This document shows positions 4,501 through 41,694 of a stretch of 41,694 nucleotides of DNA, piece by piece (the first letter of the stretch is position 1; each line of letters begins with the position of its first letter). The notes below the pieces were generated by a model that saw only the letters and a program-made list of their open reading frames with translations, was not told where the DNA came from and did no database searches. A program made the translations under genes and the position numbers. Source of the DNA: Calocera cornea HHB12733 (taxonomy: Eukaryota; Basidiomycota; Dacrymycetes; Dacrymycetales; Dacrymycetaceae); assembly GCA_001632435.1 (NCBI GenBank), contig KV424127.1, forward strand, positions 1-41,694, given 5' to 3'.

Positions 4501-4866
4501 AGCCGCCTGGGAGCAGCAGAATGTATGAGAAGCTTAGGTGACCTCCAGCGCAGGTTGAATCGATATGATGAGGCCATAGTAAATCTGGAACGGGCAAGGG
4601 TGACGTTTGAAGAGATCGGCAGTCGATATGGAGCCGCATGGTGCTTTCGATATCTAGCACTGGCGTTCATCGATCAGGGCAAGAGCACCGAAGCCAAGAC
4701 AATGGTGGAACACGCTGCAAATCTCTTCAGCGAAATCAACCGGGAAGATGAGGCGAAGAGGTGTCGTGCCCTCTTCGACGAGGTGGATGTTGCAGTTGGA
4801 CTGCGAGACGGCTTTACCTGCGTGGTGCAGGACTTAAGTTACTTCACGATGAAAGTCGGGATGTAG
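1545..4866 (+). CDS. NLR A: N-terminal helical domain, NB-ARC-like NTPase, ten TPRs
   Basis: Model: exons 1545-1673, 1729-1865, 1928-2057, 2111-2137, 2185-2210 and 2268-4866, encoding 1015 aa. Five exons encode a helical N-terminal region (about residues 1-150) with no motif I can name. The long last exon opens with F-Y-G-R-D, then a P-loop GMGGIGKT (192-199), Walker B VLLVLD (about 263-268), a T-M-R-G sensor-like motif and a GLPL-like D-G-I-P-L. A winged-helix region precedes ten 40-residue TPRs (573-972). This is the STAND/NLR layout: a ligand-sensing repeat array, an ATP-switch oligomerisation module and an N-terminal effector or signalling part. The start at 1545 is chosen because the equivalent ATG in NLR B is at the same place. 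An ATG at 2230 lies inside intron 5 and is not the start. The last 30 residues differ completely from NLR B. Confidence 0.88.
3535..4734 (+). repeat. Ten tandem 120-bp TPR units in NLR A
   Basis: Units of exactly 120 bp (40 aa) run in phase with the reading frame. Units 2-8 are nearly identical at the nucleotide level; units 1, 9 and 10 have diverged. Consensus core: SMGDILRML, then R-N-D-E-A-M, then EDAKATYEA. A longer period of 360 bp is visible in the second helix: the order MVKF, MAKL, M/VEKx occurs in units 3-5 and again in 6-8. Most differences between units change the amino acid and cluster at a few positions. Because 120 is divisible by 3, all six frames stay open here, which creates long false ORFs. 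Confidence 0.95.
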
Positions 4867-5044
4867 GCTTCTGGGACAATCTAGGATTTTTATTACGATT
4901 ATTTTCACTTTCCCAACTGCCATTTCGAAATTAAATGCAAGCGGTCATTGTGACGTGAAGTGATATCAAATTCTGCAAGAGATACAGAGTCGGTCAGAAA
5001 CGGAAGCTTTGCTTCCGTGCGAGGAATCCAGCCAGTGCGGTTCT

Positions 5045-5100
5045 CAGGGCCGTCGGCTCCGACGTCCCCGATCCGCGGGCCTGGCGTGCCCCAACTCGCG
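5045..5100 (+). repeat. Dispersed repeat R1, copy 1
   Basis: Begins AGGGCCgTCGGCTCCGA and continues with ATCCGCGGGC and TGGCGTGCCCC. The same string recurs with substitutions at 6358-6410 and 11838-11890. Each copy lies 177-355 bp downstream of the stop codon of an NLR gene or relic, so it is best explained as a 3' flank copied together with the NLR. Confidence 0.7.
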
Positions 5101-5308
5101 GGTGCCGGCGATGATCATCCAGCCCAGGCAATCCAGCGCACGATCGTCGACAGAGCATTCCACGAGCGTCGGTCCTACGCCATCTCCACAGCCCTCCCCG
5201 TAGCGTTGACATCACATTGTCGACCATCAAACAGAGCACACCCATCAGCCTCGGGGGAGAGGAAGGGAGGATGGTTGGGGGAGCCGGGACAGCCCCGGGC
5301 AGCGCTGG

Positions 5309-5570
5309 GGATCCGCGGCATGAGCGTGTGCGTCTTATTTCCTTCCTCCTGAGATCTCTGGTGGGAAAGAATAGGCGGCATGCGGGGAGATGAGGAGCAG
5401 AAGAGCACCATTGCGATCTTAGCGCCGAGGGGAGGGTCGAAAAGCGGCGCGTCGGAGGCGGTGGCGGGCCATCAATGGCTGCTGGAGAACGAGGGAGGAC
5501 CGCGCTTGCCGAGGCGGGATAGACGGCGGGGGAAGGTCGTCTCTTCTGCTTGGGCGAGGGAGGGAGCGGG
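5309..5570. repeat. Dispersed repeat R2, copy 1
   Basis: About 260 bp shared with 7033-7295. Anchor strings are GTCTCTGGTGGGAA-like, GGAGATGAGGAGCAGAAGAG, GCGATCTTAGCGCCGAGGGG and CGCGCTTGCCGAGGCGGG. The block ends just before the NLR relic. It is either part of a transposable element or a piece of an upstream NLR flank. No terminal inverted repeats or target duplication could be made out. Confidence 0.7.
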
Positions 5571-5581
5571 TGATCGCCGCC

Positions 5582-6003
5582 TTCGGAAGGCGGCGTATGA
5601 GGCAATGGGCAACGGGTTGGGCGCAGCGTACTGTGGCAGGAGCATGGGCAATGTTTTGCGCAGGATGAACGACTATGCTGGGGCAACAGATAAGTTCCAT
5701 GAGGCAATGGTGATGTTTGATATCGCCGGGGATCAATGTGGATCGGCCTGGTGCTTACGATATCTGGCACTCATATTCATCGATCAGGGTCAGAACGACG
5801 AAGTCGAAACCCTGGTGGAACGGGCGTCACAGATCTTCATCGAAATCAGCATGCCAGACCAGGCGGACTCGTGTCGTGCCCTGTTAAACGAGGCGCACGC
5901 CGCCGATGAATCGCCCAAGACCGAGGCGGTGGGCTCAAATGTTGCCAGCAGCGTGACTTTCGCAGAAGCCGCCAGAGAGGGAGCCGAGTGGAGAGCTTGT
6001 TGA
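5582..6003 (+). pseudogene. C-terminal NLR-TPR relic
   Basis: A frame ending with TGA at 6001-6003 encodes only the tail of an NLR: one and a half TPRs (Y-E-A-M-G-N onward with G-R-S-M-G-N-V-L), the capping repeat (S-A-W-C-L-R-Y-L-A-L-I-F-I-D-Q-G) and a tail ending R-E-G-A-E-W-R-A-C. That tail matches the C-terminus of NLR B (R-E-G-A-V-W-R-A-C) and not that of NLR A. No NTPase module or N-terminal domain precedes it; the open frame upstream reads into repeat R2. It is most likely the truncated remains of a third tandem NLR copy. A short expressed TPR protein from the same frame is a less likely alternative. Confidence 0.75.
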
Positions 6004-6357
6004 GAGCGACATCTGGATGATGACACTTTGCGGTGGACGCGGAGACCATGATTGGTTGTGACCGTTGTAATGGATTATAGATCGTGGTGGAGGCAGAGTT
6101 ATGGATGTTCGTTTCGCAAGATGCCCAGTGCCTCGGGGGCCGGCCCTATTGTTGTCCCCACTGCGCGTCGCGTGATGACGCGTAGAACGCGTCCAAATCT
6201 TCCGACCCAGCTCTAGCAAAGTCTTGAGCTCCTTTATCTATGAATCCTTGAGTGCATTTGACCACAACGATAGGTCATTGTCCATATCGTAGTGATCAAC
6301 CAGGTAGCGCAAGTGGTCCAGAAGGAGTAAACTTGGTAATGTAATGCTCGGGGCGTT

Positions 6358-6410
6358 AGGGCCCTCGGCTCCGAGGTGCCCAATCCGCGGGCTTGGCGTG
6401 CCCCGATCTG
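6358..6410 (+). repeat. Dispersed repeat R1, copy 2
   Basis: Shares AGGGCC(c)TCGGCTCCGA, AATCCGCGGGC and TTGGCGTGCCCC with the copies at 5045 and 11838. It lies 355 bp downstream of the NLR relic stop. Confidence 0.7.
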
Positions 6411-7032
6411 CGTTCCCACCCGGACCATCATGCCCAGCCCATCTCGATAGCCTGGAATTGTTACATGCTCACCAGAGAGGATCGTATGACCAGAAGACCT
6501 ACGTCATCGTTACAGCCGTCTGTGGAGTGTGACGACTGCTCCTTACGCCGCATCATCCGCTTCATCCACCGCCAGACGCCCTCAGAGCTCAGCCGCGTCT
6601 GCCGTCCCACCGCTTTGGCGCACAACCGCACTGCACACGACACCTCCTGCGTATCCCCAGGCATGCTGGTCTGCCCGTACCAGCAGCGCCCATCCAGCAC
6701 CCACGCCGATTCTACCTCCCGCCCATCGTGTATCCCCATACCGGTATCGCCTGTCCTCTAGCGAGCGCATCCCAACGGTGGTGCTGCAGTTGTCGTTCCG
6801 GTCAATGGCCGCGGACAGCGGATCCATCTTCGTGCTGTGATAGTGCACTGGGACCAGAGGTGCCACGGGAATGGCGCACATGAGAACCTGTACCAGGTCG
6901 TTCAGTACGAGGGCTCGCACACCCGTTCTAGTTCTCTTGCGCACCCGCTCACTCATGGCGCTCTATGACAGGTCATCCACCGCCTTTTGTTGGTCTGACG
7001 TGTTATGCAGGGAGGGCGAGGAGTGTGTTCCA

Positions 7033-7295
7033 AATCCGCAGCCTGGGCGTGTGCGTCGTCCCCCCTTCCTCCAGATGTCTCTGGTGGGAAGGAGCAGAGG
7101 GTATGCTCGGAGATGAGGAGCAGAAGAGCACCGTTGCGATCTTAGCGCCGAGGGGAGGGCAGACGATGAGTACCTCGGAGGACATGGACCTAGGTCCTCG
7201 GTGGCCGCTGGATAGGGAGGGAGGGCCGCGCTTGCCGAGGCGGGGCAGTCCACAGAGGAAGGTCGTGTTCCTGCTCAGATGGGGGACGGAGCGAG
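7033..7295. repeat. Dispersed repeat R2, copy 2
   Basis: Matches 5309-5570 throughout, with substitutions and small indels. Here it stands alone about 480 bp upstream of NLR B, without NLR coding sequence attached. Confidence 0.7.
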
Positions 7296-7777
7296 CGGTG
7301 GCGCAGGACGGATTGATAGCGGTGCATCAGTCAGTACCTCTACTCCAGCATGCATCCTGTGCGTTCATCCACAATACATCTATTGTCCATGCTTGTTCGG
7401 AAGCCTCGGCCCTCGGCTCTCGCAAACCACGGATGTCACGGTACCGCTCGAGCTAGCTGGCACGGCTTGCATTCGAGCACTCTCCGGACAATTGCGTTTC
7501 ACAGCCTGGACGCATGCTCTCCACGGCAAGCAAGATGTCCCGTACTAAGAATCACCGTGGGATAGCAGTGGGCTGCAATCGCCGCTCCGCCATTGTCAGC
7601 CCACGGTTGATCCACCTGCCCAACAGCACGGCGTTGGTGCGTCGCAGCCTCATAACTGCGCGTCCGTCTGCCTCTGGACGCTCAGACTCTGGCGCCGTAT
7701 CCCCCCAATCGACCGCTCAAAGCCCCTCTTTACAACGCCCATCTTCCCACAACCCACCGCTGGCAGATAAGCCCCTG

Positions 7778-10700
7778 ATGAGCAGTTTGTCCTCAGCTCC
7801 CAAGGGGGCACTGGCGGGACTCACCTCAGCCTTTCAGAAGCTGAAAGTTGGAGCGACGTCGGCAGCAGCGCCGGTGAAGGACAAGGCTGAGGAGATCGTG
7901 TTGAGGGTGACAGGAATCTACGAGGTATGAACGGGTGCCGTACCCGCATGTGAAGCCCTGTACTGACATCGCACAGACCGTGCGCAATCAAGGGCCCGAA
8001 TATGAGGACCTCACAAAGCAGCTCATCTTCCTTACGACCCGTGTTCTTGGCGACATCCCTCAACACGCGAGCTTTAGTGAAGAGCTGCGTGATGCACTCG
8101 ATGCGCTCAAGGAGTACGTTTTGCAATACACCCGCGTGCGCATTATTTGACGGAGCAGCAACACTCTCACTCTAGAACCTGTAGTGAAATCGAGACTGAA
8201 CTGAAGCCCATTCAAAAGAATGTCATCGAGCGCGCGGCACAAGCAGCGGAAGTCATTGAGCGATTGCAAAAGAAGCTAGACAAGCAGTCACATCATCTCA
8301 CGGTATGTCGATTACCTTTTCCCTTGTATTTTGCCCTTCTGAATCAGGGATTCCAGCTGGCGGGGACCGTAGACTATATGAGAGTACGCCACACTCACGC
8401 TTCTGCTAGTCTGCAGGATCACTATCTGACATCTACATTCTGCAGTTCAGGGGCGCCGGTACCGCTACAATGTGCGTCATTGCCAAACCCAGACGTACTA
8501 CCTTGACTGACAAGCCTGACAATACCAGGCAAGCCGATCCAGGTCGACTGCGGCCGCCTCCCAAACCCGCCGTTTTCTACGGCAGGGACGGGCTGGTGCA
8601 GTCGATGGTGAACATCCTCCTGCAGGATGAAACTTGTCGCATTCCACTCCTTGGCTTGGGCGGCATCGGGAAGACTTCCACGATCGCTACGGTGCTCCAC
8701 GACGATCAAGTGAAGGCAAAGTTTGGCGAACACATGTTCTTTCTCAGCTGCGAAGGCATTGTTTCTGCCTCTGGAATTCTCCTGGCTTTGGCCTCGGCAT
8801 TGGGATTGCAGCACGAGAACCGGGTGGAAAAAGCTCTCGGCGACTTCTTTGCAGCGCGCAAGTATGTTCTGCTCGTCTTCGATAACCTTGAAACGGTGTG
8901 GAACGCGGACGACGAAAGTCAGGTAGAGAAGGTTCTTGCGGAGTGCGCCAACATCAGTACCGTTTCGCTTGTCATCACCATGAGAGGCACTATTCGACCT
9001 GGCGGAGTAGACTGGAGTGACGCCGTCCTTGACCCCCTTGACCCCCTACCTTTGGAAGCTGCCCGGTCAATGTGGATGAAGCTTGCGAGGAAGACGGACT
9101 CAAGACTGGACGAGCTACTGAGGCTTCTTGATGGAATTCCCCTCGTAATCACGCTAATGGCATACCATGGCCAAAGGATGACTCCGACCGAGCTCATTCA
9201 AGAGTACGATCAGGAACCAGCATCCTTGATGTCCCACGGAAAGCCGGGTCGATTGACGAGCTTCGAATTTTCGATGGAATTGTCATTAAACTGTCCCACG
9301 ATAGAAGCCGAACCAAACGCGCGAGCCATATTATCCGCTCTCAGCATCCTCCCCGATGGCATGGTAACATCCGCGGTAAAGGACATTCTTCCTTCCCTAC
9401 ATGGAAGCGCGCGAGCCGTGCGGGTATTGGTAGAAGTTGGGCTGGCACATACCACTGCCGAACGAGTCTCCGCGTTAACTCCAGTTCGGGACTTCATCCG
9501 CGAAAGATATCCGCCGAACGAGTCTTCTCTCGCTGAGCTTTGTAGTTACTTTACTCGATTGGCCGCTCTCGCAGACGATTTCGTGACAAAGTTTACTACG
9601 AGCGTGGCCCGCACACTTCGCTCAGAATATGGGAACATCAATGCGGTCTTGCTACGCTCTTGGCGCGGTAGCCTTACCCTGGATGCAGCTGCAGTGCTCT
9701 TGAAAGTCACCATTCAATTATCAAGCTTCTCACGTCAGACTGGGCACGGAGATAGCATACCGTTGCTGCAAAGGGCGGAAATCATCCTAAAGGACATTGG
9801 AGACCGTTCCGGCTCAGCGGACTGTACCTGGAGCATGGGCGATGTTCTTCGCCGGCGTAGTCAGTATGACAAGGCAATAGCGATATTTGAGCATGCGGGG
9901 GCAACGTACAAGGCCACCGGAAATCGGTCGGGTGGAGCGAACTGCACCTGGAGCATGGGCGATATGCTGCGCGTGCTCGGTCGCTATGACGAGGCAATGG
10001 AGAAGCTGGAGGATGCGAAGGCGACATACGAGGCCATCGGGAACCGGTTGGGCGCAGCGCAGTGCACCAGGAGCATGGGCGATATCCTGCGCATGCTCGA
10101 TCGCTATGATGAGGCAATGGAAGAGCTTGAGGATGCGAAGGCGACGTACGAGGCCATCGGGAACAGGTACGGCGGAGCGCAGTGCACTATGAGCATGGGC
10201 GATATCCTGCGCATGCTCGGTCGCTATGACGAGGCAATGGAGAAGCTTGAGGATGCGAAGGCGACGTACGAGGCCATCGGGTACCGGTTGGACGCAGCGA
10301 ACTGCACCGGGAGCATGGGCGATATCCTCCGCATGCTCAATCGCTATGATGAGGCAATGGAGAAGCTCGCGGATGCAAAGGCGACGTACGAGGCCATCGG
10401 GTACCGGTTGGGCGCAGCACACTGCACCTGGAGCATGGGAGATATCCTGCGCATGCACGATCGCTATGACGAGGCAATGCAGAAGTTCGAGGATGCGAAG
10501 GCGACGTACGAGGCCATCGGGTACCGGTTGGGCGCAGCGAACTGCACCGGGAGCATGGGCGATATCCTCCGCACGCTCAATCGCTATGATGAGGCAATGG
10601 AGAAGCTCGAGGATGCGAAGGCGACGTACGAGGCCATCGGGTACCGGTTGGGCGCAGCACATTGCACCAGGAGCATGGGAGAGATCCTGCGTGTGCTTGA

Positions 10701-11661
10701 TCGGTATGACGAGGCAATGGCGAAGCTCGAGGATGCGAAGGCGACGTACGAGGCCATCGGGTACCGGTTCGGCGCAGCGAACTGCACCGGGAGCATGGGC
10801 GAGATCCTGCGCATGCTCAATCGCTATGATGAGGCAATGGAGAAGCTCGAGGATGCAAAGGTGACGTACGAGGCCATGGGGAATCGGCTGGGGGCAGCAC
10901 ACTGCACCAGGAGCATGGGCGACGTCCTGAGTGGTCTCGGGCGCTATACAGAGGCGATGGAGAAGCTTGAGGATTCCAAGACGACGTACGAGGCCATCGG
11001 GCACCGGTTGGGCGCAGCACACTGCACCAGGAGCATTGGCGACGCCCTGAGTGGTCTCGGTCGCTATACAGAGGTGATGGAGAAGATAGAGATTGCGAAG
11101 GCCACGACTGAGTCGATCGGAAGCCGGGAAGGCATAGCAGAGTGCTCCACCAGCATGGGTGATATCCTCATCCTCCTCAATCGACTTGACGAAGTGCAGG
11201 AGCACCTTGAGAATGCGAAAGCGATGTTTGAGGCCATCGGGAGCCGGGACGGATCAGCGAGGGCAACACGCAGCATGGGGAATCTCCTGAGGCTTATGAA
11301 TCACCACAATCAGGCAATAGAGAGGCTGGAGGAGGCTAGGGTGACGTTTGAGGCGACCGGCTCACGCTCTGGAGCGGCACGGTGCTTCCGCTATCTGGTC
11401 ATGGTATACATTGATCAGGGCCGGAACTCAGAAGCCGTGAGCATGGTGGGACGCGCTGCGACTCTGTCCCTCGAAATCAAGAGGCCGGACGAGGCGGACT
11501 CGTGTCGTGCCCTGTTGAAGGAATTACGTCCCGCCGATGAACCGCGGAAGACCGAGGTGGTGCGCCCAAGTGTTGCGAGCAGCACGACTGTTGCAGACGC
11601 CAGAAGAGAAGGAGCTGTGTGGAGGGCCTGTATGTATGAGGATGATAAGAGGTTGGGGTGA
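7778..11661 (+). CDS. NLR B: N-terminal helical domain, NB-ARC-like NTPase, fourteen TPRs
   Basis: Model: exons 7778-7924, 7977-8113, 8176-8302, 8357-8383, 8446-8471 and 8529-11661, encoding 1198 aa. Intron positions and phases equal those of NLR A, and exons 2, 4 and 5 are the same length. The helical N-terminus (residues 1-155) is only loosely similar to A. The NTPase module is nearly identical: F-Y-G-R-D, P-loop GLGGIGKT (197-204), Walker B LVFDN with F in place of the L found in A, T-M-R-G and D-G-I-P-L. Fourteen 40-residue TPRs fill residues 578-1137, followed by a variable tail. As a STAND protein it should sit as an inactive monomer until the TPR superhelix is engaged. The ATG at 8470 spans the exon 5/intron 5 junction and is not the start; an ATG at 7514 is an alternative start. 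Confidence 0.9.
9796..11475 (+). repeat. Fourteen tandem 120-bp TPR units in NLR B
   Basis: In-frame 120-bp units with the consensus SMGDILRML, R-Y-D-E-A-M, EDAKATYEA. Units 2-10 are very close; units 1 and 11-14 have diverged. A 240-bp higher period is clear: units 5, 7 and 9 read A-A-N-C-T-G-S-M, while units 6 and 8 read A-A-H-C-T with W or R. This points to expansion of a two-unit block. Every central unit has Y at position 24, where the NLR A units have N, so homogenisation has acted within each gene separately. Confidence 0.95.
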
Positions 11662-16502: not shown

Positions 16503-19473
16503 TCACGGCCCCGCCTCACGCTGCACCTTGGCCAGCGCTTTCTCGCAATCAAGCACGTCCGTCATCCTTCCCAAGTCCTCATACATACTCTTTGCACGGA
16601 CAAATAGCGGTCTTGCTTCATCATACCTCTTCTGCGTCAGCCGAATCCGCCCCAGCATCTCAATGCAGAACGCCTGGCCAGCTTGGTTGCTTGCCACCTC
16701 GAACGCCAACCTTGCCTCTTCATAGACAGGGGCAGCCTCTTCCAGGCGCGATTGCGAGCGAAGGATCTCTGCCCAGCTGGCTAGGCATTTCGCCGCACCG
16801 AGAGGCTCGTTGATGGCCTGGAAGCCCAGCTTTGCTTCCCCCAGCAGGAACTTTGCGTCCTCAATACGAAGTTGCATGCGCCGAACCTCGCCCAAACACC
16901 ATACCGACTGCGCTACACCGAGTGGATGACTCATGGCCTTGAACGCTTCCAGCGAGACTTCGAAGAGATGCCCGGCTTCATCATAGCGACCTTGCATGCG
17001 CCGGACATTACCCAATGCTTGCATGCATTCCGCTGCGTCAAGCGGAGATCCCATCGTCTTAAAGGTCGCCTCCGCCTGCTCCAACACGGGCCATGCCTCA
17101 TCATAGCGGCCTTGTAGATACAAGGTGTTTCCCACACCCCGCTGGCATTGAGCTGCGGCAAGGGGCTGGCCCAGATCTTCGAACACCGACTTGGCCTGCT
17201 CAAACAGCGGCAACGCTTCCTTGTAGCGTGATTGTATCCGAAGGACTTCGCCCAATCCCCGCATGCATTGGGCGGCACCGCGCCGATGACCGAGATCCTT
17301 GAATGCTGACATCGCCCGCTGGAACAGGGGGACCGCTTCTTCATGGTTGGATTGCATGCGCCGAACATCGGCCATCTTGCGCAAACATCGAGCTACACCG
17401 AGGGGATCGTGGATCACCTCGAAAGCCATTGTGGCCTCGTTCAGCAGTGCTAAAGCTTCGTCGTAGCGTGATTGTATACGGCTCATGTCGCCCAACCTCC
17501 GTGCGCACTCAGCCGCATCACCGAAGCGGCTCAATGCCTCCAATCGACCGCGCGCCTCCTTCAGCAGCGGTGCCGGGTCACTGCACTTGGTGAACAGCGA
17601 AAAGTAGGCTGCGTGCCACGTGGCTTGGAGCAGCTCCTCGATTCTTCCTGTGGCAGGTTCCTTCCTCCAAAAGAAGAGTAAAACTGAGTTAATGTTGGCA
17701 AACTCAGGACTAAGGTCGTCCACACGGACCACCATCTGGTTCGTGCCCACATGCTGAACTTGGAGACATATCTCCACACAGTACGTGAACAGCTCTCCTG
17801 GAGACTGGCTTGTGGGAGGGTTTCCTCCCCGAATAATATCTCGAATGGGCGACAGCACCTTCAAGCGTTCATTGATCTCGAAGGCGAGAGCAACCTGTCT
17901 CAAAGTCGAGATGGCCTGGAGCACGTCGCTACTCTGCGAAGGTTGCATTTTCTGCAGTGTATCGGCCGTTGCACCGTCTGGCAGCAGCGACAGTACCCAT
18001 AAGAGGTCGCGGGTATAAGGGTCTTCAAGCATCAGCTTAGATCCAAGTGATACCTCAATTGATACTTGGAGACATCCGAGCCGTCCTCCAGAGCCGATCT
18101 TCATCAACTTCGTAGCAGATGTCTCATAAGAAGCGAGAAGCTGCGTCGGGGTCAAATATCGACCTTGCTTTGCCATCAGTTGAATAGCAAGAGGCAGGCC
18201 GTCGAGCTTCGCAAGAAGCACATCCAGCTGGTCGTCTTTCTTCCGCGCTACTTGATTCCAGATCTGCCCAGCAGCATCGAGGGAAAGGGTGTTCAGGACG
18301 TCGAGAGAATCCCATACGATGCTCGCCGGCGGTATATCTCCTCGCATGGTGACAAGCAACGACAACCGCGGAAGTCTGGATAGTTCTTCCAGCAGTTGTT
18401 CAACATGCTGGCTATCGTCCGAAAACATGGCCGTTTCGAGATTATCCAGCACGAGAAGATACCAGCCTCGAGAGCGAAGATGAGCGAAAAGGGTCACCCG
18501 GGTGTTGGAGTCAAGCTTCAATCCTAGGTATGCCGCCATGCCCTGGACAATACTATCTGCAGTTGCGGAACTCTCGCAACTGAAGAAGAGAATGTTTCGA
18601 CCGTACTTGGCAAGGACGTCGGGGTTGTTAATGGCTGTGATCGCCAACGACGTCTTCCCGATCCCTCCAGTGCCGAGCACCGGAATTCGAGAGGGTCGAG
18701 TCTCCAGAAGCAGACGTACAATCGAAGTGACCAGAGCGTCCCTTCCCAAAAACACTGTAGGCTTGGTTGGGATTTCGGGCTCGACGGAGTCTCTGTGGTA
18801 GCGCGAGTCAGCAATCAAGGTTGAAAATTCGCTTGGTCCTCACTTAGCAAAGATAAATAGCCCCTCATTTCGATCGGTGACCGTGGCAATGCGGACCTCC
18901 TACGAATCATGAATGTGGTGTTGGCCATGGGCTGGCATCAAAGCGCACAAGAAATTTCATTCTGATATCGTTTAGATCATTGATGAACATTTCGATTTGC
19001 TCTTGCCTCTCTTCCGACACCTTCTCCCTTTGTGTCACCGGAGCATGTAGAAAATCAGCTATGCTCGTGGCAGTCCTATAGGGATCCTCTAAGTTGCCGA
19101 TTCCAGGACCACAGTAGGATAACCTACTTCAAAAGGGCTACGGACAGAGCTTGCGCGGTGGCGTCCGTTCCATCCTCTGCCCACGAATAAGATGGAAGAC
19201 GATTGATGACTTGGTCGGTGATCCATATTAGGCTGGAAGCGAGCTTGGTGCAGTCTCGCTGGCGCTCCTTGATCTCCTGATGATCGGACGCGTCAGGGCG
19301 CTTAAAGCACAAGTTGGTGAAAGGCATACCTCCCAAATCCCAAATACTTGCAGCACCGTCTTCTTCAACTTTGAGTCTGGAAGACTAGGGGATGCCGCAG
19401 CCTTGTCCTTTAGGCGCTGAACAGCGACATTCAGTCGTTTTATGTTGTCGTCCAGGATGCTTTCGGCGCTCAT
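16503..19473 (-). CDS. NLR E: N-terminal helical domain, NB-ARC-like NTPase, eight TPRs
   Basis: Model (minus): exons 19473-19330, 19276-19128, 19075-18949, 18899-18844 and 18792-16503, encoding 921 aa. The N-terminal helical region has the same exon logic as A and B, but the two tiny exons 4 and 5 of those genes are one 56-nt exon here. The NTPase module has F-L-G-R-D, P-loop GTGGIGKT (199-206), Walker B L-L-V-L-D-N, T-M-R-G and D-G-L-P-L-A. Eight TPRs of about 40 aa and a short cap end the protein. The repeats are well diverged, with no recent amplification, so this is an older and steadier member than A and B. All splice sites are GT-AG and the frame is intact. An upstream in-frame ATG at 19599 is an alternative start. 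Confidence 0.88.
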
Positions 19474-25546: not shown

Positions 25547-28500
25547 ATGAATCCTCCAACCTCTACGTCCTCGAGCGCGGAGCCGAGCGCGTCAAGGGCT
25601 AGCCTCGGCTTGATGCTTGAGAAAGTCAAGAAGGCAGCAACGTCCAAAATGACTCTCGCGCTAGAAACTGCACTAGAGCTTGGCATGAAGGCAACTAGAA
25701 TCTACGATGTACGCTGTTGACCATTCTTCGCCCTTTCAAGGGAGCTTACCTGTTCTTTTAGACGGTCCAGGAGAAGCGGGAAGATCACCAGAAACTCCTC
25801 GACAATCTGATGTTCGTGACGAGCCGCGTCCTGGGCAATGTTCTTCCAGTCAGTGATCATCTGAGTGAAGAAATGAGCAAGGTCATGACGGAGCTGAAGA
25901 TGTATGACGCTTGTCACTGCTCATCCGTCGAAGACATCGCTAAACTCAAGCACAGCGTCGTGAAGGACGCGGAAGCTGCAGTGAAACGCAATGGCTCCTA
26001 CGGGGCTGCAAGCCTGGCCACAACGGCTTCCCAGTCGATTGAGCGTTTGAACAAGATGCTGGAACATGGCACCCTTCAACTTACGGTGAGAAGCGACTTC
26101 AAATAACACTGTTTTACAGCTCTGAGCCAGCACCTTAGGCAATTCGGACAATGGCTCTCAGCGAAGAACTGGCGGATATGAAGCTCAAGGTACGGTCTTC
26201 CCTGTGTTACAGAACCCGTGCGTTGCTCATCTGTACTGCACCTTCTTTAGGTCGCCGGTAGCGACAGTGTGCTAGTGTACGCCTATCGATCCTCACCGAG
26301 TGCGCGCTTTCATTTAAACTTGGCGTAGCCCAGCAGACCTTCCTCTGGTTGAGAAACCACCACACCCCCCCATTTTCTTCGGAAGAGACGAGCTCATAAG
26401 GACCATCGTCTCAGCCCTTCTCACGCACGAGTCTTGTCATATTCCTCTTCTCGGCACAGGAGGAATCGGCAAGACCACCATTGCCGCGGCCGTCATCAAC
26501 ACCGTTGCTGTCCACCAGAAATATGGAGAAAACATCTATTATGTGCGCTGCGAATGCCTTCTCTCTCAAGAGGGCATTCAGCTTGCATTGGCCGCGGCGT
26601 TGGGCGTAAACCGTGAGCACGGTACTCGAGCTAAGTTGATGGCGGCCTTAGCATCTCGCTCTTTTGTTCTGTTGATCTTGGATGGTATCGAAGCAGCTTG
26701 GCTTTCCGAGGACCGTACAGGAGTCGAGCAGTTTCTATCCGCCTTGGCAGGAGTACGAGGCTTGTCACTTATCATCACCATGCGCGGAGCGCTTCGGCCC
26801 GATGGCGTGGACTGGATACCAGGATTCGAGCCTGTGCCGCCATTGTCCCTTGATGCTTCTCGCGCTATTTGGATGCAGATCTCCGGGCATACGGATGAAA
26901 GGCTAGCTGACTTGCTCCGTGGCTTGGATGGGCTGCCCTTGGCCATCAACCTCATGGCCCATCGTGGGCAGAACATGAGCCCAACCCTTCTGGTCGACAC
27001 ATACACACGCATCAAAACCTCGCTGCTTACACGAGGACAGCCAACTCGTTTAACTAGCCTACAGTTCTCCATAGAGCTGTCCCTCAATTCACCCAGCATG
27101 AAGTCCGCGCCGAATGCACTGAGGCTTCTGTCCTTGATGTGCCTGCTCCCGGACGGCATAGCGATGGCCAAGTTAGACCACATGTTGCCTTCGATGCAGT
27201 GTGCGACGGAAGCGGCGCTGGTGTTGATCGAGGCCGCATTGGTGCTATCGGAAGCTGAACATCTTAGGGTGCTGTCTCCCATTCGTGACTTCGTTTTAGA
27301 GAAATATCCGCCCGGGGAGCCCGAGCTCACGGACTTACGGAATGCCATAATGGAGATTACATGGAACTCAGATCGGATTGGAACAAGCAGATCCAAGGAA
27401 GCGATAGCTTTGCTGTCGGCGCAATTCGGAAACATCCACACTGTCATACTCCACTTTTGGAAGACGATTCCAGACACCAGTCAAATCAATGTTCTCCATC
27501 GAGCAACCGATCGACTTGTTTGGTTCTCTCACGCGGCGAGCTACGGTGACTGCGTCGAGCTTCTGGAAGCCGCCGCGGTGGCTTTCGAGAATCACGACAT
27601 GCCACTTGGTGCGGCACAATGCATTCAGAGCTTGGGAAACGCACTACTATCTATGGATCGTTGCAGCGAAGCGGCCGGCCATCTCGAAAATGCTGAAAGG
27701 GCATTCAAAGCACAAGGAAACATCCGTCTGGGGGCCCGTTGTACGTACAGTCTAGCCTTGCTGCTGCGGAAAGAAGCCCGCTACAAGAACTCCCTGGAAA
27801 AGTTACAATATGCCCGAACGAAGTTCGAGTTGGTCCACGATCGAGCGGGCCAGGCACAGTGTATTCAGACAGCTGGAGAAGTACTCCAGTGTCTACATCA
27901 ACATGCGGCGGCCATCGAAAAACTCGACGAGGCAAAAGCGTGCTTCGAAATTCTTGGCGACATGCTCAGTGTAGCGCAATGCGCACAAAGCATCGGCAAC
28001 TCACTGAGGCTTCTAAGTGAGCCGGAGAAGGCCACAGCTAAGTTTGGCCAGGCCCGGGATGCTTTAGAAGCAGCCGAGGAGCGAATTGGAAATCCTCAAT
28101 ACAGCAAGACAAAGGGCAATGTGCTAGCTTCATTAAGACAGTACACGAAAGCCCTGACAAAGCTGGACGAAGCCAAAGGCGTGTTTGAATCTATTGGAGA
28201 TATACTGGGCTCAGCACAGTGCTCTCAGAGCATCAGTCTTATACATGCCACACAATTCCATTTTAGCGAAGCAAGGGAGCAGATGAGGATTGCTGGGGCA
28301 TTGTATAAGGATATCGGCAATCGGGCTGGTGAGGCAGAGTGCATGCAGAGCTACAGTGAGCAACTTCTCATGACTCGCAATTATACCGAGGCCCTCGACA
28401 CATGCCAATCGGCGGCTCAGTATTTTACAGCCCTAGGAGAACGGAACCGAAGCGCTCAATGCAGATGGATGGCCGGAGATATTTTGTGCCGGCTGCACCA

Positions 28501-29374
28501 CTTTGAGCCCGCTCTCAATAACTTTAAAGCTGCCCAAGAGATGTTCCAAGAGCTGGACAACACGAAGGACCTTGCACGCTGTATACACAGCACGGCGAAT
28601 GTGATGTGGTGTCTGTCGCGTCCTCGGGAAGCTGTGGAACGATTGGGCATGGCAAAGGCGATGTTTGAAAGCTTGCAAGATCCTTTCGGGGTGGCACTGT
28701 GTCACCAAAGCGAGTTTGCACATTTGCTGCGCGAGAACGACTTCAAGTCCGCTTCCCGTGCTTTCGAGATGCTGAAGAAAAACTTCAAGGCAGTTGGCAA
28801 GGACCATGAACTGGCAAAATGCTGGCAGCTAATGGGCGAAGCACTCCTTCGAAATCAGCTTTTCGGTCGTGCTCTTGGACAACTCGAGGAAGCCCGCAAA
28901 GCATTTGAAGTTGAAGAACACGCGCCAGGGATTGCTCAATGTATGCACAGCATTGGAATGGCGGCCATCCCACAGAGGCGTCTGGAGTGCGCGGCGAGTA
29001 ACTTCGTGTACGCCGGCAGCGTCTTCCGACAAATCGGAGATAAAAGCGGAGAGGAGTCGTGTGCAATGTTCTGCGAAGTTCTCGACCTCATCAAGGCTGC
29101 ACCGAGGAGGTTGGAATGTGAGGCAGAACAAAAAATAAGGGGCTACATCCTTTGGCACACGGAGAGACACCTTTACGCTGAAGCCGATGCATGCCGTGCG
29201 GTAGCGGCGGCCCTCGAGAAACTGAAGCTGGAGGCGACACCAAGTGGTTCGAGGACGGTTGCGCAGTTGGATGAGCTACAAGCTCGCCCAATCAGGGCGA
29301 AGACAGGATGGAGATGGAAAATTGGGAGCCTGCGAAAGAAGCAGGGTGATGCTGGCGGCCGCGGATCCAGGTGA
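25547..29374 (+). CDS. NLR I: N-terminal helical domain, NB-ARC-like NTPase, about twelve TPRs
   Basis: Model: exons 25547-25708, 25762-26085, 26139-26189, 26251-26276 and 26329-29374, encoding 1202 aa. The N-terminal helical region follows a Ser/Thr-rich leader and ends with the same L-Q-L-T splice boundary as in A and B. Exons 2 and 3 of A and B are fused here, with about ten extra residues at the join. NTPase motifs: F-F-G-R-D, P-loop GTGGIGKT (230-237), L-L-I-L-D Walker B, T-M-R-G and D-G-L-P-L-A. About twelve TPRs of roughly 40 aa (Q-C-x-Q-S pattern) run from about 27600 to 29060; they are strongly diverged and show no recent unit duplication. The tail is basic (W-R-W-K-I-G-S-L-R-K-K-Q). 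It is a full-length but distant paralogue. Confidence 0.88.
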
Positions 29375-35629: not shown

Positions 35630-37106
35630 CTACTCTTGTCCCTGACGCTTGTCATTCTCCTTCTCAGCTTCACTTGACTGATTACCCTCGCGAAGACTGG
35701 CTAATTCTGCCCGACAGTCCTCTACCTGTGCTGTTGCTCCCAGCTCCTCAACCATCTCTATCGCACTAGTCAACATCACCTCCGCGTCTTCACGGCGACT
35801 TTGGGCCACCATAATGTCAGTAAGAACATCGTACACCATCCCCACGCCGTATCGATTGTGTGTGCCTTGAAAGATCCTCTTTGCTTCTTCAAGGTGGTGG
35901 ACAGCTTGCTCGTGTTGACCTTTGCGGAAGGAAATACCCCCCATGTACTAGAGGCATTCTCCTAGCCCGTTCAAACTGCCGATGGCTTCATACATAGACT
36001 TGGCTTCCAGCAGCTTCTCCGACGTGTCTTCAAAGTGTTTCATTGAGATCAGTACCGCACCAATCCTCTGTGTACTTTCTGCAGCACCCACAGGGTAGGC
36101 AGTGGTCTCAAAGGTGGCTCTGGCTTGCTGTAACGTTTGCACTGCCTCCTCGAGCTGTCCTGTGTTACCCAGTACCGCACCCATCCTCAGCAAGCACTCA
36201 GCAGTTCCCAGTCGATACCCGATGTCATCATACAGAGCCTGGACTGCTGGAATTGCTTCAAGGCTTCATCGTGTCTACGGAGTATGCGCAGTGCATCTCC
36301 CATGCTCCATCTGCACTGTGCCTCCCCTAAGCGCTCGCCTAGACTTTCAAAGATCTGAAGAGCCGCCGCCAGAATTCGCAATACCTCTGGGAACAGGTGC
36401 TGCACACGGAGCATCTCGGCGCGCGCATACATGCATCTAGCAAGTTCATGCTGGTTCTCATAGACCCGAAAGACAAACTCGGCATTCTGCAATTCCTGTT
36501 CAGCTTCGGGGTACCGATGCAGCAGGCCAAGGGTCATGCCCAGGTGCCGCCTGCACTTGGCTGCACCCAGTTGATCGCCCATTGCATCGTATTCTTCTCG
36601 GGCCAGTCGAAGCTCCTCCATAGCCTCATCGCACCGATGCATGAGGCGAAGAACATCCCCCATGATTTCTCCACATTGTACCTCTCCCCGATGATGTTCT
36701 AGTCTCCTGTATAACGTCTTAGCTTCCCGCAGTGCTTCCAGAGCTTGAGAGGTCTCGTTAAGGTAGCGCAAGACTTCTCCCATACTCTGTAGGCATTGTG
36801 CGATGCCCAGCTCGTTCCGCACTTCTACAAATGTGGCTTTTGCATCCTCAAGAACGGCAAAAGCAGGGTGATATTGGTTCATCAACCGCAGAACAGACCC
36901 TTTGCTGTGCTTGCATTGGGCTACTGCCAATCGATCCCCCAAGCGCTCAAAGGACACCATTGCTTCGTCTAGATGCTCAAGAGCTTCGCTGTGCCGAGAG
37001 CGAATGGACAACAAGTCTCCCATACTCTTTGTGACCTGTGCTACAAGTGCGGCAGTCTCTTCCGCCGCCCGAAGCTTGAATTTGGCCAGCCCGAGAACTG
37101 GCAAGG
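35630..37106 (-). pseudogene. NLR M: TPR half only, frameshifted, with a premature stop
   Basis: The minus strand encodes about eleven diverged 40-residue TPRs (for example G-D-R-L-A-V-A-Q-C, then S-V-L-R-L-M-N-Q-Y) and a C-terminal tail, but no NTPase module. Three lesions are visible. First, the coding region is cut at 37106/37107 by the LTR of a Ty3/gypsy element, just before the first TPR. Second, a frameshift lies at about 36255-36265: downstream, the frame resumes as A-L-Y-D-D-I-G-Y-R-L-G-T-A-E-C. Third, an in-frame TAG at 35948-35950 replaces the Gln expected in the C-L-x-Y-M-G-G-I context. The NB-ARC half should lie beyond the element to the right of the window. The gene is dead. Confidence 0.85.
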
Positions 37107-37340
37107 TGTAAGGGATCCCTAATAGGGACTAACCTTTCCTAGAAAGGAAAGGTTCACTGTTCTACAGTATTCGGATTTTCTGTATCCGAGAACGGGTTAC
37201 ACGTAGCGCAGCTCTAGGCCGCAATTTTCTCTTCACTCCCTCTTAGTGCACACAATATCATTGTATTAGATCTACTCTAATTACAGAGATTCAGTGTACT
37301 ACTGAGGGCGAAAGAGCACAGACTCTTTCACTTTTTTACA
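37107..37340 (+). mobile_element. 5' LTR of the Ty3/gypsy element
   Basis: Starts TGTAAGGGATCC directly at the NLR M junction and ends TTTTTTACA, giving TGTAA/TTACA termini and about 234 bp. The start is firm because NLR coding sequence stops exactly there; the 3' end is inferred from the inverted termini. No clear tRNA primer site follows. It contains strong hairpins, for example arms 37131-37140 and 37145-37154. The 5-bp flank caagg (37102-37106) may be one copy of the target duplication. Confidence 0.6.
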
Positions 37341-37426
37341 CTACTCGAGACCGGAGTGTATTCTCCAATTAGAGACTTACCCATCGTTGGGTACTATACC
37401 TTGTTAGTGCAGAACGCTCTGCTCGA

Positions 37427-40400
37427 ATGCGCGGCGGGCGTTCGACGGACTACGGTCCTACCTGGCATCAGGGGGATCGACCACGAGTACGTGGTACTAG
37501 CGCGCAACGCGCTTTCCCAAATGGGATGCCCAGCATTGCTGGAGATCCGACTTCGTCCCCTTGGGGGACGTATCGGACAGACCCAAACGTTTGGGGGCAC
37601 GGTCAAGCAACCGACAGCTCAGATTTGAGCAATCATCAGGAAGATGATGATCAGCGAGGTATCTCGCATTCGGCGAACGCCGATGAGAATGCGCCTGCTT
37701 CAGAGGAAGCGGATGAGGTCCATGGGATGGACGAGGAGTCATTGGCTCAACAAAACCCCCGTGGGGTTATAGATTCTCTTTATCGGAGTTCCGATTGGAT
37801 CCGGCGGATCGCTAACGACTATGCCATTCTTATGGACGCACGTCCTGAGCAAGCTGCTCATTACGCGCAGCTCGCGCAGGAGATCGCTCAAGCTTGGGTT
37901 GAGGCGCGACCAGAGTCGCCCGCGGTAATTATACCGCCGCGTGCTCGCCAGACGTCGGGAGAGACCATATCGTCCGGACGCGCAACGATACCGCCTCCTG
38001 TAGAGGCCTCACAGCGACGACACGTCGCACCAGCAGAAGCGTCATGGGCACGAGCTGTCCCTACGCTATCGACAGGACGACCGAACACGTCGTACCCTTC
38101 CGTGGGGTTTGTAACGCCGAGTAATAGATCTGGCGTGAGATTCGGGAGAGTCCCGACTACGGCCGCTCCCTCCCAGAGGGATCAGACTGACCTCGGCACA
38201 AGCGCGTTGTTGCCTGAGGCTCCTCTCAGGAGGATAACCCATTGGGTTGAAGCAGCGAGCGAGCCACCCCCTGCGACCCTTCCTTCTACAAGGACAGGCA
38301 TTAAGCCTAAGATGCCTGATGATCCCTATGGAGGGGATGCGGATATCGACAAGTTTGTCGAATTCATAGCCACGCTGGTTAGGGCGTATCGCATCTGCGG
38401 GATGACTGGCGCTGAACATAGCGCTTGGCAAGTGGATGCCATGAGCCAGTATCTTACTGGAGAAGCCCATCGATGGTTTGAAGCCAACGTTGAGCTTGGA
38501 CTCTGCCCGAGGCAGTCATGGACTTTTTCACAAGTCGTCTGGGGGTTATTCCACAGATTCTTCTCTGCTGAAGAAACGCATAAAGCGTACGTGGAGTTTG
38601 AGACCCTAGATCAGGGTAGACTTTCAGTTGAATCACTGAAAGACAAGTTGAACAACTTGTTGGGGAGGATGCATGAACCTCCGAACCCATATCTCATTAA
38701 GAGAAGATTCCTTTTGGCTTTAACAAAGCCGATCCGTAGAGTTGTCCTCCAGGGAGGATTCAACCCGGATGTCGATTCGTTCGACGATCTCTTCGCGAGA
38801 GCGATAGAGATAGAGCGCGGATTCGCGCTTGCCAACGAGGTTGACTCGTGGAAGACAACCGCGTCTAACGCTGTGCCTAGTCCTAAGGCCGCAACTAAGC
38901 CCGTAAGGACGCATGTTGCTAAAGGGAAGTCGTATGTACGACAACCTGGGCATTTCAACCACTCATTCCGAAGTTCGGGATACGGCGGGAAATCCCCAAG
39001 TACAAGCGGTAATACCGCTCCTCGACCAAAGGATAACAAACCTATTGGTTCAACTCCGTCTGGAGTGAAGGACCCGCGACCCGTCGCAACAAGCAAAGAT
39101 CGTTGCTTTCGTTGCCAGGGGACTGGACACTGGGCTAACGACTGCCCTCAACGCAAGTCTGTGCGTTTCGGAGGGTCCGGACCTCTAGGAGAGGATGAAT
39201 ACCTTGACGATGATGGTATTCATGATATACTCACCAGCGGTGATAGCAACCCCGTCGCTGAATCGCCAGAAGGCGATGAACGTACAGAATTCCCGGATGG
39301 GGACCAATGGGAAGACGAGGGAGACGACCCTCAGGAGTCTGGAGACTCCTGCTCCTCAGATGGGGACATACCGACAGTGACGGTGCGGGCCATGACAATA
39401 TGCCCGCTTGGACCACGAGTGGTCCGAGCAGCATCTGCTGCTGCGAAGAGATTTAACAGCCCTATGAAGGGCGAAACGCCAGAAGAATGGCGTAGTGATA
39501 ATACTATCCGCCTTAAGAAAGGCCAACCTCGACGTGATGTCGATTCATCACCTATTGAATGCTACGTTAGCATTGGCGGACACACCGCCCGAGCGCTGAT
39601 AGACAGCGGAGCAGAGATCGATACGATCTCTGCTGAATTCGTAGTTGCGCATGAGATGCGCTATATCCGATTGGATACTCCCGTGGCTCTTCAGCAAATG
39701 AGCCGCGGGAGTCGTACCGTAATCAACTACGGTGTAAACGCTGACGTCAGCGTGGGAGGTGATGTTTTCGAACATTATTTCGATGTCGTCAATACAGACG
39801 AATACCAAGTTATACTCGGTCTGCCTTTCTGTAGGCGGGTCAGGATGATCTTGGACATCCAAGCGAAGAAATTTCAGCTTGGGGGCGTCAATGGACGCTG
39901 GATCAACTCCGGAGGAGTACTCACGCCTGGCGTAACACTGCCTGTCCAGCCAAGGCAGGTAGTCAAGCGGGCAAAGCACGCTAAGCAACCAGGGGGAAGA
40001 CAACCCAAGGTTGTACACGCCAGGATGGCGAAAATCGCAGACACCGCGATGGCAACGATCGCACCATCTAGTATGGTTGAGCCTACCGCAGCTAAGCTGC
40101 AAGGCCTATCCGCGGTACCGCAAGGCAAATTGGATAGGATCAGGGCGATCCTGATGTCTGAGATTGTCGATCTCATAGGGGATATCCCCCTGGTTCTACC
40201 TCCACTACGGAAGGTGAACCATAAGATCAACTTGGTTGACGACAAGGCCGTCTATCGGACTAGACGTCCGACTTGTCCGGATGTACACCGGGAAGAGCTT
40301 CATGCGAAGACTCAACAATATGTTGAAGCAGGATGGTGGCAACCTGCACAGACGCAGAATGCTCTGCCGATGCTTTGCATCACCAAACGCAACGGAAAGC

Positions 40401-41694
40401 TGTGAACGACAGTAGACTGTTGAGAAAGGAACAACAACACCATAAAGGATGTTACTCCGATGCCGGATCAGGACGAGATTCGTCGCTGGGTAGCGAGATT
40501 CCCCTTCCGATCCAAGTTGGATCTACGCAACGCGTTTGAGATGCTCCGAGTGGAGCCGGATGACGTCTGGAAGACGTCCTTCCAAAATCCTTTTGGGACT
40601 TACTTAAGTCTAGTTGGACAACAAGGGGATTGCAACCTCCCTGCGTCGTTCCAACGCATGATGATGGATATCATGCGTGAGCATTGGATGCTTAGGGTAG
40701 TTTGCTACCTTGACGACATATTCGTCGTCGGATCAACCTTGGAAGAGGCGATTGCCAACCTGAGATTGATCTTCGCAATACTGCGAGAGCAGAAGCTCTA
40801 CCTGTCCGAGGACAAGGTGGACATGCTATCTCCCACGATTGAGTGCCTAGGGCACAAGATCACGGATGATGGCATATATGCCGATGACGACAAGATGTCT
40901 GTCATACGCACGGCGGGATTCCCGCAAGACGCTAAAGCCATGCAGCGTTTTCTAGGTATGGTGACCTATCTGGCACCATACCTGCCGAACGTGGCTAGGT
41001 TCACTAGTCCGTTGTCTGCTTTGACGCATCTGCGTCGACCATACTTGGTCACTCCCTTGCACGAATCGTGCTTCAAGAAGATACTTGAATTGGCTACGCA
41101 CTACCCAGTGCTTAAACCAATTGATCCGTCCAACGGACAAACGGTATACGTCATTGTTGACGCTTCCACAAGTGGAGTCGGGTGCCTATATGGGCAAGGT
41201 ATGAGCTGGGACAAAGTCCACCCAGCTGGCTTCCACTCGAAGCGATTTACCAACGCCCAGATGGCGTATCCTACATACCAGCAGGAACTATTGGCCCTAT
41301 TGGAGGCTCTGCTCAAATGGGAAAGCCAATTGATCGGTATACCGATAACCGTTTGTACGGACCATGAACCATTAAGGTACCTTCAATCGAAGGCGACTCT
41401 TGCTGGTCCAAGAGTTACTCGAGCTATCGAGTACCTTCAGCGATTCAATATCGCTAAAATACAGCATGTACCGGGGGAACGCAACATAGTTGCAGACTGG
41501 ATGTCTCGGTCAGAAGGACCGAAAGGACCAGTATCCGCGGACGTGCGGATTGACAAGGAAATGGACACCTTGTCCGAAGCTCGGATAGCTGAACTACTGC
41601 CAGTAGTGTCGGTTCGTCAAATGACGACGAGGTACAGAGGGACTAAGGTCCCACCTCGGGAGCGTGTCGAGCCGCGAATTGCGGAGAGCGAGAG
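37427..41694 (+). pseudogene. Ty3/gypsy gag-pol (gag, protease, RT, RNase H), two internal TGA codons, 3' end beyond window
   Basis: One frame runs from the ATG at 37427 to the window edge. Gag capsid includes R-W-F-E-A-N-V-E-L and the F-x-x-L-x-Q-G-x-L-S-V-E-S-L segment. A CCHC zinc knuckle C-F-R-C-Q-G-T-G-H-W-A-N-D-C starts at residue 560. The aspartic protease has L-I-D-S-G-A (D726). RT has L-D-L-R-N-A-F-E, P-F-G-T-Y and the catalytic Y-L-D-D (40706-40717). RNase H has V-D-A-S-T-S-G-V-G and T-Y-Q-Q-E-L-L-A-L. Gag and pol share one frame, with no frameshift. TGA codons at 40403-40405 and 40421-40423 break RT near its start, both where the family has Arg. Integrase and the 3' LTR lie outside the window. 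With these stops this copy could not make full RT unless they are read through. Confidence 0.92.

Follow-up and report, generated by a model that had tools for sequence, protein, structure and literature searches.

The window analysed here is a stretch of 41,694 nucleotides (nt), contig C214, in the 32.1 Mb genome of the wood-rotting jelly fungus Calocera cornea (Dacrymycetes), and all coordinates below are window positions. The NEDD8-activating enzyme encoded in the window matches a protein of C. cornea HHB12733 at 93% identity over 84% of the query. Judging from its repeats and predicted domains, the sequence at 37107..41694 on the plus strand is part of a Ty3/gypsy-type long terminal repeat (LTR) retrotransposon, and it is filled along its whole length with short perfect hairpins, of which 140 that do not overlap make up 46% of the sequence. 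The element opens with a 5ʹ LTR (37107..37330, +), found as a 225-base match bounded by TG...CA, with 10 perfect inverted repeats with arms of at least 5 bp, some of them overlapping. It is followed on the same strand by a gag-protease frame (37427..40402; 106 such repeats) with a CCHC zinc knuckle and an aspartyl protease, and by a reverse transcriptase and RNase H region (40460..41692; 47 repeats) that was assigned with Pfam and continues past the contig end. PF17917, PF17919, and PF00078 exceed the Pfam cut-off in pol, a set which we take to be a gypsy-type reverse transcriptase/RNase H; upstream of it, PF00098, PF13650, and PF08284 exceed theirs, and the Ty3 capsid match stays below its cut-off.

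A second long copy of the element, on contig C165, is 99.5% identical to the window copy and has an equal hairpin density. The differences between the two are scattered and are all single changes, together with one single-base indel. Lesions seem private to each copy, with early stops in the reverse transcriptase frame of the window copy and a broken gag frame in the C165 copy. Because both long copies hit contig ends within pol, the integrase and the 3ʹ LTR are unseen. The LTR match is repeated elsewhere in the genome, in the C165 copy and, beyond the two long copies, at C285 (99.6% identity), C83 (85%), C242 (86%), C38 (82%), and C48 (80%). By eye, the C83 solo LTR is flanked on both sides by CAAGG; a target-site duplication is not evident at the C38 or C48 LTRs. 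The first 35 bases after the LTR have no exact complementarity of 8–12 bases to the LTR or the leader, so no self-priming match was found for the element. No Rfam family reached its gathering score anywhere in the window, and no relative of the element was confirmed among viral contigs. For gag, the best 7,998 candidates scored gave one weak match, in Tulasnella (36% over 14% of the query), and the closest reverse transcriptases are 44–50% identical and belong to relatives with the same domain set.

When perfect inverted repeats with arms of at least 5 bp and loops of 0–7 nt were counted, 37107–41694 held 166, compared with 28.8 (standard deviation 5.6) in 40 dinucleotide shuffles. For arms of at least 6 bp, the numbers were 80 and 7.2, and for arms of at least 8 bp, 7 and 0.6, respectively. 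The density was uniform over the element, with 18–26 repeats per 600 bases in 14 overlapping windows, and the maximum of any 600-base window within 1–37000 was 10. The flank at 1–37106 showed no excess (227 repeats vs. 271 in 6 shuffles), which disposes of the objection that host DNA might be equally dense. Synonymous-codon shuffling lowered the counts to 28.7 in the gag-protease frame and 11.7 in the reverse transcriptase-RNase H region, and codon-order shuffling lowered them to 19.1 and 7.9, respectively.

The element had first been described in a sequence-only reading, which counted by eye about 20 hairpins (arms of at least 5 bp, loops 0–5) in 37427–38030, about half of them with arms of at least 6 bp. 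By program, this region holds 23, compared with 3.4 in shuffles, and 15 of the 25 found with loops of 0–7 have arms of at least 6 bp, compared with 1.4. The hairpins that it named were found at 37111–37120, at 37131–37154 (10 bp, loop 4), and in gag at 38621..38660 (+), where 38621–38642 abuts 38643–38660 (8 bp each). The pattern starts at the LTR, as that reading had stated, runs through gag into the reverse transcriptase, and holds its density to the contig end. Its view that amino-acid coding is not the cause also stands, since the excess lies in coding and non-coding parts alike and most of it is removed by both kinds of codon shuffling. The comparison it had proposed with dinucleotide- and codon-shuffled controls thus gave a large excess.

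We compared the element with 71 control retroelement loci of the same genome (28 chosen by reverse transcriptase, 30 by integrase, and 13 by copia reverse transcriptase), some of which overlap and each of which includes flanking DNA; the set leaves out 19 of 49 integrase matches and 22 of 52 reverse transcriptase matches. Measured against 15 shuffles, their repeats were 0.63–1.91 times chance, with a top 600-base count of 16, and the five loci cut from the two long copies (L001–L005, with 0.7 kb of host DNA in L003) reached 4.9–6.4 times chance. Hairpin saturation as a general trait of this fungus's retroelements was therefore not seen in the 71 loci. None of the 30 integrase (rve) loci examined, out of 49 rve matches in the genome, is hairpin-rich. 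The top ratios among the controls belong to L059, L061, L062, and L067 (1.89–1.91 times shuffle), far under that of the element.

The proteins of the element carry an imprint of the hairpins. Back-translation with random codons gave 9.1–9.2 repeats per kb, compared with 6.2–6.6 when the residue order was shuffled (z = 5.7 and 3.8), so the process seems to have altered residues besides synonymous sites. Nine relatives of 44–50% identity showed no such imprint (z −1.6 to 1.4), and a family-wide property, judged from protein sequence, was rejected for these nearest proteins. The process seems either to have begun in this lineage or never to have been common to the nine relatives.

The excess depends sharply on the size of the hairpin. 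With loops of 3–7 nt and base shuffles as the control, arms of 3 bp numbered 212 vs. 202, arms of 4 bp 85 vs. 49, arms of 5 bp 71 vs. 12, arms of 6 bp 41 vs. 3, and arms of 7 bp 7 vs. 1; the excess is thus absent at 3 bp, present to some degree at 4 bp, greatest at 5–6 bp, and little at 7 bp. It is confined mainly to loops of 0–7 nt, chiefly 3–6, with 2 hairpins at loop 8, 5–9 at loops 9–12, and a mean of 3.1 at loops 12–30. For 6 bp arms the cut-off is abrupt, with 11 at loop 6, one at loop 7, and none at loop 8. A typical hairpin thus has arms of 5–6 bp and a loop of 3–6 nt and rarely overlaps another: there were 29 overlapping pairs, compared with 87 under random placement, and shuffled sequences showed no such avoidance. 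The longest perfect stem of the element, with 11 bp and a loop of 3, lies at 39610..39634 (+). Regular spacing was not seen, as the hairpins are spaced as in random placement with gaps of up to 79 nt, and an entire hairpin is contained in 30% of the 21-nt windows in the element and 12% in the flank. The loops have a purine content not above background, and a common loop motif for capsid binding was rejected because the loops are diverse.

The sequence-only reading had suggested computing folding energies, and these were below those of shuffled controls along the whole element, with a mean sense energy of −39.7 vs. −32.0, or 24% lower. The same was true of the antisense strand. In 75 windows of 120 nt, the mean z was −2.27 for sense and −2.55 for antisense (paired difference 0.28 ± 0.13), and it was −0.12 for both strands of the flank. 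The stems are built almost wholly of Watson-Crick pairs. At interior positions flanked on either side by two or more pairs of the stem, G.U was observed 33 times vs. 29 in shuffles, A.C 32 vs. 34, and Watson-Crick 296 vs. 71. After the perfect hairpins had been masked, there were 34 stems of 6 pairs interrupted inside by a single non-Watson-Crick pair, vs. 14.5 expected, their broken pairs being 5 G.U, 7 A.C, and 22 other (2.25, 2.42, and 9.78 expected); masked near-hairpins with 5-pair stems numbered 67 vs. 48 and those with 7-pair stems 11 vs. 4. Imperfect hairpins therefore exist, yet G.U is not preferred among them.

Selection on folding energy was also simulated, in short runs of about 2,800–8,400 steps on sequences of 300 nt and with no coding constraint. 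When random sequences had been brought by selection to a local sense-RNA energy near that of the element, they held 11.7 perfect repeats per kb (6 runs), compared with 35.3 in the element, and their sense strand was favoured by 8.3 kcal/mol per 300 nt, compared with +1.2 ± 1.3 in the element. Simulated selection on both RNA strands gave 17.2 repeats per kb (6 runs), and selection on DNA energy gave 17.1 (8 runs).

The arms also have an orientation. Of the 140 hairpins, 93 have a purine as the outermost base of the 5ʹ arm, 70 have a C-G and 27 a G-C pair at the second position, and 56 have C and 19 have G as the fifth base. The share of C in C+G at the second position is 0.72 in the element and 0.48 in synonymous shuffles, codon-order shuffles, and the flank; in the other retroelement loci, with 1,873 hairpins, it is 0.52 (492 C vs. 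458 G). About twenty stem and flank positions were inspected before this bias was picked out. It is clear in arms of 5 and 6 bp, holds in both halves of the element, and recurs in ten hairpins of the LTR and leader (6 C, 0 G). Coding phase is not supported as its cause, as all three codon positions show it. Stacking energy is not supported either, because swapping the arms shifts the mean energy by 0.02 kcal/mol and is thus energetically neutral. Preferred switch points of a copying enzyme are one source that might be guessed at.

Hairpin content differs among the LTR lineages. The seven LTRs hold 5–12 perfect repeats each, compared with means of 1.4–1.8 in 200 shuffles; those of C214, C165, C285, C83, and C48 (9–12 repeats) exceed every shuffle, and those of C242 and C38 (5 each) merely match the highest. 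Thus two of the four LTRs with 80–86% identity have strong hairpin content. At 37156..37168 (+), the hairpin actgt-TCT-acagt appears in C48 as accat-TCT-atggt, with two compensated pairs, and in C242 in a state with two G.U pairs. In C83, the segment attagaTCTACtctaat, identical in five of the six other LTRs, is replaced by attag-AAA-ctaat and taatt-T-aatta, a clustered change that swaps one perfect hairpin for two different ones. The longest LTR hairpin (37131..37154, +; 10 bp stem, loop AGAA) also has a different perfect hairpin in its place in C83, where atacttg-C-caagtat replaces the long 5ʹ hairpin. The 7 bp hairpin at 37310..37329 (+) has identical arms in C214, C165, C285, C83, C38, and C48 with a varying loop, and one outer arm base is changed in C242. 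As a separate observation, the C83 solo LTR (L037 1482–1520) begins with a tandem duplication of the first hairpin unit, agggatttccctaat.

In the well-aligned part of the LTR, substitution was 0.110 in arms, 0.119 outside hairpins, and 0.199 in loops. That the arms are hardly more conserved than the sequence outside and several are still complementary fits arm-to-arm copying better than purifying selection. A hand count of changed cells in six reliably aligned hairpins gave 7 G.U, 3 A.C, 5 paired, and 8 other. Three hairpins were left out, the first two for uncertain 5ʹ alignment and the last (37207) for an offset of a few bases; the full table including them reads 8 G.U, 5 A.C, 7 paired, and 27 other. 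Paired arm changes across copies, for which the sequence-only reading had proposed to look, were thus found at some LTR hairpins, and there were none between the two young copies.

With a probability that we put a little short of even, these results would be explained by templated fold-back copying, which rewrote the lineage of the element into dense perfect short hairpins. During copying of the element, the growing strand would fold back on itself over a few bases, copy one arm into the other, and then rejoin the template. Chance quasi-palindromes would thereby be turned perfect, and protein selection would retain only the events that the proteins tolerate. Since the pattern is missing from every other retroelement locus examined in the genome, the reverse transcriptase that the element itself encodes would be the likeliest agent. 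Strand symmetry, near-perfect pairing that largely ignores G.U, and repeats beyond the need at equal energy argue for arm copying over selection for RNA stability. So do the orientation bias, which is energetically neutral, and the finding that only one of the elements examined has the pattern. In a bolder form, about which we are more tentative, the copying enzyme would have converted the whole sequence of the element, its proteins included, to mini-palindromes as an unselected mutational drive, and the purine-then-C signature would mark where it exits and re-enters the template. The choice between selection for structure and fold-back template switching, as it had been framed from the letters, is upheld, and of the two, switching by the reverse transcriptase fits better and is not proven.

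Several results weigh against fold-back copying. The two young copies show no template-switch footprint, although the single changes between them may be host mutations after insertion. One-mismatch quasi-palindromes are not depleted. Arms of 4 bp show the orientation bias weakly (17 vs. 12) and the fifteen arms of 7 bp not at all (4 vs. 4), and protein conservation shows no clear difference between 5ʹ and 3ʹ arms. The changed cells in the LTR hairpins lean to G.U, and so do the longest stems: there were 7 G.U vs. 1.2 expected and 3 A.C vs. 1.6 in stems with four inner and two outer pairs, 8 G.U and 3 A.C in stems of 8 or more pairs that contain one odd pair, and 23 G.U and 16 A.C in those of 7 or more. 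Decay after insertion has also affected the divergent LTRs, and the loops change faster. Further, the hairpins are slightly more stable than matched random ones (mean −4.93 vs. −4.48 kcal/mol), arm GC drops with length (0.60, 0.56, and 0.50 at 5, 6, and 7 bp), and loop 4 goes with arms of 5 bp but loop 6 with arms of 6 bp (Fisher p 0.0036, a contrast picked after the table had been viewed, with loop 7 running opposite at 7 vs. 1). These last trends are signs of a stability threshold, and together with the size threshold, the G.U lean of the longest stems, and the missing footprints, they keep the selective explanations alive.

The better of these, which we regard as possible but unlikely, is selection on short hairpins in both strands (RNA, antisense RNA, and single-stranded cDNA), where hairpins would slow hybridisation and so shield the element against silencing by small RNAs or against antisense pairing. 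The need for perfect pairs would then follow from the fact that a G.U on one strand becomes an A.C mismatch on its complement, and the strand symmetry, the size threshold with its stability trends, and the avoidance of overlaps in the element and not in shuffled sequences are all as expected. The host genome has Piwi, RdRP, and RNase III domains, with two RNase III adjoining on C98, and LTRs rich in hairpins occur in more than one lineage. However, with a whole hairpin in just 30% of the 21-nt windows, random spacing, and long gaps, the hairpins would form a weak shield, and near-hairpins broken by all mismatch types are in excess. Selection on both strands also leaves the orientation bias unexplained, yields half the repeats when simulated as energy selection, and sits poorly with LTR arms that are not more conserved than the sequence outside hairpins.

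Selection for an ordered sense RNA, serving packaging, stability, or translation control as in viruses with genome-scale ordered RNA structure (GORS), appears improbable. The element resembles such genomes in a folding energy under shuffles over its full length, coding and non-coding, and the compensated pairs between LTR lineages, some of them beside G.U states, and the G.U excess in the longest stems are what selection on sense RNA could leave; a stability threshold on 5 bp stems could also render G.U as harmful as a mismatch. It differs from GORS in that its hairpins are short, local, and perfect, are equal on both strands, and make little use of G.U. The antisense strand is structured at least as strongly, most stems and near-hairpins have no G.U excess, the loops are no richer in purines than background, and perfect repeats are 2–3 times those of simulated sequences at about equal folding energy. 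Neither a strand preference nor, save in the longest stems and the LTRs, a departure of G.U from chance was found. The earlier proposal of a globally ordered RNA is thus weakened by the equal strands, the little G.U, and the simulations, and what still speaks for it is that the longest stems and the LTRs lean somewhat to G.U. That base composition, codon usage, low complexity, or assembly error produced the pattern as a by-product can be set aside with near certainty: the three types of shuffle each abolish most of the excess, which rules out chance, composition, and codon usage, and the C165 copy, on a separate contig, is equally dense with scattered differences.

Upstream of the element, the window holds a cluster of genes resembling fungal NLR/STAND genes, at 2230–4866, 8470–11661, 16503–18818, 26543–29374, and 36187–37104. 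Three of the five have a P-loop such as LGMGGIGKTS, and TPR-like repeats are present; these labels were read from the translations. The LTR start (37107) is 3 bases from the first listed start of the minus-strand TPR-like frame 36187–37104, so the element may interrupt that gene. Long minus-strand frames at 3526–4446 and 9814–11205 lie opposite TPR-like arrays and are probably a by-product of the repeats.

The element shares its LTR, CCHC gag, aspartyl protease, reverse transcriptase, and RNase H with Ty3/gypsy (Metaviridae) elements of Agaricomycotina, and it differs from them in its hairpin saturation, as nine relatives have no protein imprint and the other reverse transcriptase loci of its genome are near chance. 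Closer to the pattern is quasipalindrome or template-switch mutagenesis. According to the part of PMC8794818 drawn on here, template switching is able to create and repair perfect stems, and it gives close perfect inverted repeats with compensated and clustered changes, as in the element, whose close reverse-complement arms are perfect and have no marked G.U preference. The events described in that part of the paper lie in RNA genes, whereas in Calocera they would span a whole element. The same part reports an asymmetry of rRNA stem pairs, with G-C over C-G and U-A over A-U, which is opposite to the overall bias of the arms of the element; the outermost pair agrees for G-C.

In the open PubMed Central literature, the only literature covered, no described element with hairpin saturation was found, which agrees with the claim of novelty made from the sequence. 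Were the pattern mutational, nature would offer an example of a whole element, proteins included, moulded by a polymerase error mode, and the part that template switching plays in giving rise to RNA stems could be tested directly. Were it selective, this transposon, in a host equipped with silencing genes, would be ordering its nucleic acid in a novel manner. In both cases, short perfect hairpins throughout coding sequence affect how an excess of folding energy is to be read in other genomes.

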